A DNA stretch of 64,000 nt from Rubrobacter calidifluminis. GTDB lineage: Bacteria; Actinomycetota; Rubrobacteria; Rubrobacterales; Rubrobacteraceae. Under the pieces are notes generated by a model. The model did not search any database and had not been told where the DNA came from. It saw only the letters and a list, made by a program, of their open reading frames with translations. The stretch spans positions 124,001 through 188,000 of the forward strand of contig NZ_JAQKGV010000005.1 in assembly GCF_028617075.1 (NCBI RefSeq). Direction: 5' to 3'. A program made the translations under genes and the position numbers. Positions 4,958-6,809 of the stretch are shown piece after piece. Every line of letters begins with the position of its first letter. The first letter of the stretch is position 1.

Positions 4958-5554
4958 TCAGAGGGCCTTTCTGTAATTCTCCCGCGCCTCAATACGCCCG
5001 ATCCAGGAGAACACCCGCGGCCATCCTTCCAGGGATAGCTCCCCGCTCTCCTCAAGCTCCCGCAGACGGACGAAGTTACCAGCATAGGCGATGTCCGCCA
5101 GCGAGAAGGATCCCGCCAGATATTCCCGTCCCTCCAGGCGCGCCTCCAGCTCCGAGAGATGATCCTTCAGCCTCCGCATCCCTTCCGCGATGCGCTCCTC
5201 CGGGAGGCCCCTCCGTCGTCCGGAGGCGGCCAGGAAGACCGCCGGGAAGAACTTCGCGTCGGCGAAGGCCATCCAGATCCTGGCTTGCGCCCTCGCCTTC
5301 GGGTCCCCGGGCATGAGCGGGGAATCTGGGAAGATTTCGTCGAGGTACTGGTTTATCACGTTGGACTCGTAGAGCGACTCGCCGTTCACGACGATCACGG
5401 GAACCTTCCCCGTGGGGCTCGCCTCCAGAAACTCCCTGCTCTTGTTCGCGAGGTCCACCTCGCGCGTCTCGAAATCCACGCCCTTCTCGTGCAGGACCAT
5501 CCTGGTCCGCCGGGCGTAGGGTCAGGCCTGGGTGTTGTACAGTCGGATCTCCAA
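4958..5554 (-). CDS. Glutathione S-transferase-like protein with in-frame TGA at the active-site position (candidate selenoprotein)
   Basis: Read through a TGA at 5524-5522, the frame encodes 198 residues with a thioredoxin-fold GST N-domain (IRLYNTQA-x-PYARRTR, then the cis-proline motif TGKVPVIV and ESNVINQYLDE) and an all-helical GST C-domain. Translation should begin at the TTG at 5554, which has AGGAGGT about seven bases upstream. The first downstream ATG (5500) has no ribosome site and would delete the first strand and active-site loop. The TGA replaces the residue that is Ser or Cys in GSTs of this shape (U-P-Y-A-R). Directly after it lies a hairpin matching bacterial SECIS rules. Alternatives are a TGC-to-TGA nonsense mutation or a sequencing error. 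No sel genes are in the window. Confidence 0.6.
5479..5524 (-). other. Candidate bacterial SECIS element following the in-frame TGA
   Basis: On the minus strand the UGA (5524-5522) is followed by 18 nucleotides and then a 5-nt apical loop AGGAU (5503-5499) closed by the perfect stem GGACC/GGUCC (5508-5504 with 5498-5494). A second helix CGCCC/GGGCG (5516-5512 with 5483-5479) encloses it. Bacterial SECIS elements are known to place the apical loop roughly 16-37 nt after UGA with a G among the first two loop bases; both conditions are met, and the loop resembles the AGGUCU loop of E. coli fdhF. Confidence 0.5.
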
Positions 5555-5687
5555 CCTCTACACCTCCTGAAATATCGCCTTCGAAATGTTCACCCCAGTA
5601 TACGGGCTGCCCCAAGTTTACCCCCACCCGCCCGTGGGAATGGAATCTTCCCATCGCTGTTCGTACCACTTCAGGAGGAGAGAGAAA

Positions 5688-6809
5688 TTGGCCGGGAACC
5701 GGAGAAACCTCGCACGGATAATAGACTCCCTCCTCGAGAGGAGGGGGCCGCTCCTCTCCGCCTACCTGAACGTGAACGCCGAGGCCCCCGAGAACCAGGG
5801 GAGGGCCTACCTGGTCCGGCTGAGAGACGCCATGGACGACCTGGGCGCCCCTGAAGAGTTGCGGGAGAGGATCGGGGCCTCCCTCGAGGAGAAGACGCAC
5901 CCCCGAGCGAGGACGCTCGCGATCTTCGGGGACGCGGACGGGTCCTTCGAGGTCTACCGGCTGCAGGTCGACCTGCCAGAGTCTTTCCGCTGGGGAGAGC
6001 CCGACGTCTCTCCGCTGGTGCTCGCGCTCGACGAGTACGAACCTTACGGCGCGGTGGTCCTCGACGCGGAGAGGTTCCGATTCTTTGTAGTCTCACCACT
6101 CGCCACGCCGGAGGCGGAACGGTCCGTGAAGGGCAACGGCTTCCTGGAGCTGGATATAAGGCCCAGCGAACCCTACCCCAGGAGCCACGGCTCGAGAGAC
6201 GCTGACCCGGCGGGTCGCACGCAGCAGGAGCTGGCGCACCGCTACTACAAGGAGATGGGCGAGCTCGCCCGAGACGTCACCTTCCGCGAGGGGGTGCGGC
6301 GTTTGATCCTGGCCGGCCCTCAAGAGGTACGCTCGGGCTTCCGCGAGGCGATGCCCGGCGAGATTCAGGACAGAATCCTCGCCGAGGGGCACGTAGACCT
6401 CGGAGCCCCTGAAGGAGAGCTGATCGAACTCCTCGAAGATCTCAGAAAACAGGCCGTCTTCGAGCACGACAAGGAACTGCTCGAAGAAGTCCGGGAAAAC
6501 GGTGTGTGGGGCCTGGATGAGGTGCTGGATGCCCTGCAGGAGCAGAACAGGATCTATCACCTGATCGCACTCTGGGATATCGAGGGTGAGGTCCGCTGGT
6601 GCGACGACGACTCGCTCGCCATCCAGGACATCACCAGCGAGGAGTGCCCCTTCTGCGGCCGGAAGACCCGCATGCGGCCCACGAGAGACGCCCTCGTGGC
6701 CCTCGGCCGAAAACGGGGAGCCCAACTAGACCTTCTGCGCGGCGAGAACCAGAATACGACCCTGCTGCGGGAGGAGTTCGAGGGGATCGCCGGGCTCACC
6801 CGTTTCTGA
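5688..6809 (+). CDS. Bacterial aeRF1-like (baeRF family) protein
   Basis: A 373-residue protein. The TTG at 5688 is taken as start because AGGAGGAG lies seven bases upstream; earlier in-frame starts lack one. The N-terminus (LLERRGPLLSAYLNVNAE) and the central acidic alpha/beta segment (YGAVVLDAERFRFFVVS) match the bacterial homologues of archaeo-eukaryotic release factor 1, and the C-terminal part follows the L7Ae/Pelota-like third domain. A CPFC pair near residue 343 suggests a partial zinc knuckle. Members of this group are proposed to act at stalled ribosomes or in tRNA/peptide release, but most are uncharacterised. It is divergent from the GST-like gene, sharing a 133-base promoter region. 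Confidence 0.6.
   Translation: MAGNRRNLARIIDSLLERRGPLLSAYLNVNAEAPENQGRAYLVRLRDAMDDLGAPEELRERIGASLEEKTHPRARTLAIFGDADGSFEVYRLQVDLPESFRWGEPDVSPLVLALDEYEPYGAVVLDAERFRFFVVSPLATPEAERSVKGNGFLELDIRPSEPYPRSHGSRDADPAGRTQQELAHRYYKEMGELARDVTFREGVRRLILAGPQEVRSGFREAMPGEIQDRILAEGHVDLGAPEGELIELLEDLRKQAVFEHDKELLEEVRENGVWGLDEVLDALQEQNRIYHLIALWDIEGEVRWCDDDSLAIQDITSEECPFCGRKTRMRPTRDALVALGRKRGAQLDLLRGENQNTTLLREEFEGIAGLTRF

Follow-up and report, generated by a model that had tools for sequence, protein, structure and literature searches.

A GST-like gene of Rubrobacter calidifluminis with a predicted selenocysteine codon at the active-site position

GST-like selenoproteins and the Rubrobacter gene

Lists of selenoproteins have included GST-like members since 2005, and the kind is already known. 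In the accessible parts of the sources, GST (COG0625) appears as a prokaryotic selenoprotein family with four genes from the Sargasso Sea (PMC1088965), twelve GST selenoprotein genes are counted in the GOS set (PMC2398784), and a row for GST selenoproteins is given both in a 2022 review (PMC9312934) and in a 2026 review, the latter with PF13409 and the example MEK9676863.1 (PMC13188914). The same accessible text describes the roles of selenoprotein families of such kind as largely uncharacterised (PMC13188914). Selenium has also been placed at the active-site residue of GSTs in the laboratory, as the available portions of one study and one review report (PMC10812501; review PMC10778597), and the matches in the open-licence literature on Sec-containing GSTs point to an engineered enzyme. 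When the active-site Ser13 of a soybean tau GST was chemically converted to Sec, transfer to CDNB was abolished and strong peroxidase activity was gained, according to the part of that report available (PMC10812501).

The gene described here lies on the minus strand of a 64,000-nucleotide stretch of the R. calidifluminis genome, referred to below as the window; the assembly comprises 3.09 Mb in 54 contigs and is 96% complete. Like the members of the GST-like selenoprotein family, it encodes a GST superfamily protein and has an in-frame TGA, a SECIS-like hairpin and Cys-containing homologues; the reported examples differ in being marine metagenomic or known by accession only, so that the comparison with the window protein is one of descriptions. 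The engineered seleno-GSTs likewise have selenium at the GST active-site residue, but they are laboratory products, whereas the window protein is natural. The clade in the Rubrobacteraceae seems to be new: it was not found in the open-licence literature on Rubrobacter selenoproteins and Sec-containing GSTs, and the term GST does not occur in the available text of a 2006 selenoprotein survey covering Rubrobacter.

The locus reads as one gene with a ribosome site, a TTG start, an in-frame TGA and a TGA stop (Table 1). The initial annotation had placed a strong AGGAGGT and a TTG at 5554 upstream of the in-frame TGA at 5524-5522, with the frame resuming directly into a complete GST, and both statements were borne out: the coordinates were confirmed, the frame stays open from the in-frame TGA to the terminal one, and a profile search of the 198-aa protein obtained by decoding the internal TGA as Sec returned GST_N_3 (E 6e-22), GST_N_2 and GST_C_2. 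The match to PF13409 (E 8.6e-21) gives the combination of a PF13409/COG0625 GST domain with a predicted Sec. An ordinary list of ORFs shows at this gene only a 180-aa remnant beginning at the ATG at 5500. We place the probability that this is a GST superfamily selenoprotein, with Sec predicted from sequence at UGA codon 11 and read via a downstream hairpin, at roughly 0.94, and what looks like a gene interrupted by a stop codon is almost certainly intact, its product being a GST-like enzyme with active-site selenium. A genus mate (G026) also carries the gene.

The divergent neighbour, at 5586-6809 (+), encodes a baeRF_family10 (release-factor-like) protein. At the locus of a Rubrobacteraceae relative (L051) the GST gene adjoins a lactate permease, and no baeRF-type ORF of at least 150 aa is present at the equivalent place.

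Table 1. Features of the gene and of the selenocysteine machinery; positions are those of the window unless a contig (C16) is given.
Feature	Position	Strand	Remark
Ribosome-binding site AGGAGGT	5562..5568	(-)	7 bases ahead of start codon
CDS, predicted GST-like selenoprotein	4958..5554	(-)	TTG start 5554-5552, stop TGA 4960-4958
In-frame TGA, codon 11	5522..5524	(-)	predicted Sec codon, catalytic position; TGA in 16/16 covered orthologues
Predicted bacterial SECIS core, 6-pair hairpin with GGA loop	5494..5508, loop 5502-5500	(-)	19 bases from UGA to loop
Longer consensus hairpin, 10 pairs with bulges	5488..5512	(-)	predicted on alignment
Rejected alternative start ATG, codon 19	5498..5500	(-)	end of SECIS loop / start of 3' arm
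selA	C16:75877-77190		own genome
selB	C16:77231-79030		own genome
tRNA-Sec, anticodon UCA	C16:79068-79158		own genome

Conservation of the in-frame TGA across the class

A search of the class identified an orthologue (at least 57% identity) in 17 of 39 genomes, and codon 11 is covered in 16 of these, the copy of G030 being cut by a contig end that leaves the position uncovered. TGA is found in all 16, and Cys or Ser in none; the clade in the Rubrobacteraceae would be Sec-only, with no Cys form among the covered orthologues. Fourteen loci are intact, each with a single TGA, at codon 11, and with a TTG, GTG or ATG exactly 10 codons upstream of it, a recurrence well outside what chance would give. 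Two of them (L022 and L023) have identical coding sequences, leaving 13 distinct loci, and in every one of these a ribosome-site match of 5-7 bases lies ahead of the upstream start. Among the aligned orthologues, protein identity to the window protein ranges from 57 to 88%. The ratio pN/pS (Nei-Gojobori proportions) was 0.42 for codons 2-10, 0.13 for codons 12-18 and 0.35 from codon 19 to the end, and values below 1 on both sides of the TGA indicate coding constraint, or purifying selection, on either side of it. Nucleotide identity was 0.67 in codons 1-10 compared with 0.29 in the 30 bases preceding codon 1. A divergent paralogue in G035 (L059, C105:4700-7300), with 41% identity to the window protein, has a TGA at 1030-1032, at the same position, followed by an identical hairpin core.

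Some copies look broken. In that of G019 (L064) a frameshift follows the TGA, and that of G035 is split over two contigs, with the TGA on fragment L060 and the remainder elsewhere (L036, also G035). Broken or truncated copies in 3 of the 17 orthologue genomes (G019, G035 and G030) are what might be expected of a dead GST gene whose TGA reflects a nonsense mutation or a sequencing error. Such a pseudogene is refuted by conservation, since the same TGA is found in every covered copy (16 of 16), protein identity being 57-88%, and selection is purifying on either side of it; we regard a pseudogene as next to impossible. The initial annotation had allowed that resequencing might reveal TGC, TGG or TCA; retention of TGA in 16 of 16 independent assemblies excludes sequencing error in practice.

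A shorter protein might instead begin at the ATG at 5500, where the 180-aa frame is open, and the upstream part would then be a leader or noise. The initial annotation had argued against this start for want of a ribosome site, an argument that now extends across the clade: ahead of codon 19 none of the 13 distinct loci has a match longer than three bases (GGA), and in L032 the codon is ATA. Protein-level conservation extends over the 10 codons that precede the TGA and the 7 that follow it, every intact locus has the upstream start with its ribosome site, and the shorter product would, judging from the predicted structure, lose beta-strand 1 and the active site. Initiation at 5500 is therefore extremely improbable, and the longer frame through the TGA is the one considered below.

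Beyond the class, no TGA form was detected in a sample of 396 genomes from the phylum (queries: the single protein, threshold 1e-20, and a profile, threshold 1e-12). An exact peptide-pattern scan of contigs yielded four loci, of which three were Rubrobacteraceae or Rubrobacter records and one was a distant Sphingomonas GST.

The predicted SECIS hairpin and the selenocysteine machinery

A SECIS-like hairpin, which the initial annotation had not included, was found here downstream of the UGA. According to the available part of the 2005 description, a bacterial SECIS is a stem-loop that follows closely on the UGA and has G in a small apical loop (PMC1088965), and the locus has a downstream stem-loop of six pairs whose small apical loop is GGA. 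The predicted hairpin starts 14 bases past the UGA (13 bases intervening), and the GGA loop is present in 17 of 17 loci inspected. Pairing was counted over the paralogue L059 and 14 orthologues, 15 distinct rows in all, with fragment L060 left out: 98.9% of cells in the core were paired, compared with 94.3% in shuffles, and 2 of 500 shuffles reached as high a value. L032 contributes one unpaired cell to the core.

One of the six pairs varies, being G-C in 11 rows, C-G in 2, A-U in 1 and G-U in 1, and fragment L060 has a G-A mismatch there. Both bases of this pair stand at third codon positions (of Arg16 and Val20), and the changes therefore leave the protein unaltered. Double changes are confined to this pair; at least two are independent (C-G and A-U), which is not many, and the 17-protein tree leaves undecided whether the change in L033 and L064 had a shared or a separate origin. 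The number of pairs changed on both sides was reached in 190 of 500 shuffles, because only one pair varies in this way. Synonymous differences are also scarcer in the hairpin codons, with a mean of 0.14 over 5 eligible codons compared with 0.41 over all 126 eligible columns (permutation p 0.005), in a stretch where the protein motif that the hairpin overlaps is itself strongly conserved. Folded alone, the window sequence was moderately better than its shuffles (z -2.3).

The initial annotation had named selA, selB, selD and tRNA-Sec as the genes to look for elsewhere in the genome, and all four are present. The genes for SelA, SelB and tRNA-Sec lie in a row (C16:75877-79158), with scores of 518 bits for selA (cut-off 268), 335 for selB (cut-off 242) and 69.7 for tRNA-Sec (gathering 47), and selD (L017, G000 C2:170543-171460) scored 352 (cut-off 125). 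The selD gene has an in-frame TGA near its N-terminus, reading AG-stop-ASK, and SelD is thus probably itself a selenoprotein. Across the class, selA was found in 32 of 39 genomes and in 22 of 22 of good quality; among the 17 genomes with the GST-like gene, 15 had a match, the two without one being G030 (79% complete) and G037 (75% complete). Since selA occurs in every high-quality genome of the class, presence of the gene and presence of the machinery cannot be correlated within it.

These genes bear on a further reading, in which the ribosome passes the TGA without Sec, either by read-through or by reassignment of the codon to Cys or Trp. Cys would be chemically fitting, as homologues have Cys at this position. 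However, the gene's own stop is also TGA, the full Sec machinery is present together with a second known Sec gene, selD, with a TGA of its own, and the hairpin is conserved beyond the needs of the protein; we consider this reading very improbable. The candidates rejected were accordingly a pseudogene, a sequencing error, code reassignment and a start at 5500, on the grounds of conservation, ribosome sites, the TGA stop and the machinery.

From the conserved frame and TGA, the covarying hairpin, the machinery and the Cys-containing homologues, all drawn from sequence comparison, we infer that the usual bacterial route very probably inserts Sec at codon 11. Translation would begin at the TTG at 5554; at the UGA of codon 11, SelB with Sec-tRNA(UCA) would bind the hairpin just downstream and Sec would be inserted; the ribosome would then continue, and the protein would terminate at the second UGA. 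The proposal of the initial annotation that this GST uses Sec is in this way supported by TGA in 16 of 16 copies, the hairpin and the machinery, and it stands as a prediction.

Active site, fold and possible chemistry

The TGA occupies a position that is Cys or Ser in other GSTs, as the initial annotation had held, and an alignment of homologues of the kind it had called for shows Cys at this position outside the class. The nearest relatives there (G140 and G329) have Cys, as do SspA and human GSTO1, while the Arabidopsis tau enzyme GSTU23 has Ser. Ser was found in 12 homologues from the window's own family that are more distantly related, one alignment row (L050) being without coverage, and in the Sphingomonas GST (L054) Asn is aligned. 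In GSTO1 the predicted Sec aligns with residue 32 of 1eem_A, the Cys of CPFAERTRLVL, which we take to be catalytic; the window protein differs from omega-class GSTs in having Sec for Cys, in being bacterial and in its length of about 198 aa. With UXX-star proteins, glutaredoxin-like selenoproteins in which Sec presumably lies near the N-terminus, it has a glutaredoxin-like domain in common (NF041212, 29 bits), but this score is under the cut-off of 66 and the window protein has a helical GST C-domain.

The predicted structure of the window protein (pLDDT 91, from a 14-row alignment) has the thioredoxin-like N-domain and helical C-domain of the GST superfamily. The folds closest to the model are tau-class GSTs and SspA, with the tau GST 1gwc_A at Z 25.7 over 194 aligned residues and 1.5 A, and the structure matches (VIA-align) span GST classes broadly, with no one class singled out. 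Helix 1 starts at residue 12 in the model, which would put residue 11 at the helix cap. The selenol would accordingly be located in the GSH site, capping helix 1 at its N-terminus, in the place of the Cys of omega and SspA-like GSTs and of the Ser of tau GST.

The best sequence matches among solved structures are SspA chains (6v91 and 4qq7), and, together with the Cys that SspA has at the Sec position, this raises the possibility that the selenoprotein is an SspA-like regulator instead of an enzyme. The window protein scored 84.9 bits with the SspA equivalog NF007016, far under the cut-off of 314, and a regulator would have no obvious need for Sec; we think this role unlikely. The Cys-type relatives and the peroxidase result with the seleno tau GST make a selenol-based oxidoreductase or peroxidase the likelier role. 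The protein would thus rather probably be a redox enzyme working with a low-molecular thiol, as a thiol transferase, peroxidase or reductase via a selenenyl intermediate, and not a classical conjugating GST.

As to the thiol, the genome contains two YbdK-type glutamate-cysteine ligase-like genes, L065 (G000 C9:84286-85110) and L066 (C14:90156-90986), of which L065 is over the cut-off of NF010043 and both are over that of TIGR02050. The GSH-synthetase domain PF02955 had no match in the same genome, which weakens the case for GSH, and we are unsure of GSH as the partner. According to the accessible text of a study of polyhydroxyalkanoates in Rubrobacter, which cites Johnson 2009, glutathione is produced in extraordinarily high amounts by members of this genus (PMC8146576).

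The TGA-bearing genes of this kind are easily missed or annotated as truncated. The compact SECIS of the clade is one in which synonymous covariation is open to direct testing. It is possible, if doubtful, that the clade represents a natural glutathione-peroxidase-like selenoenzyme kept by the lineage on a tau/omega-type GST scaffold, a Sec-only natural counterpart of the engineered seleno-GSTs, and the clade could reveal whether the GST scaffold serves as a peroxidase in nature.
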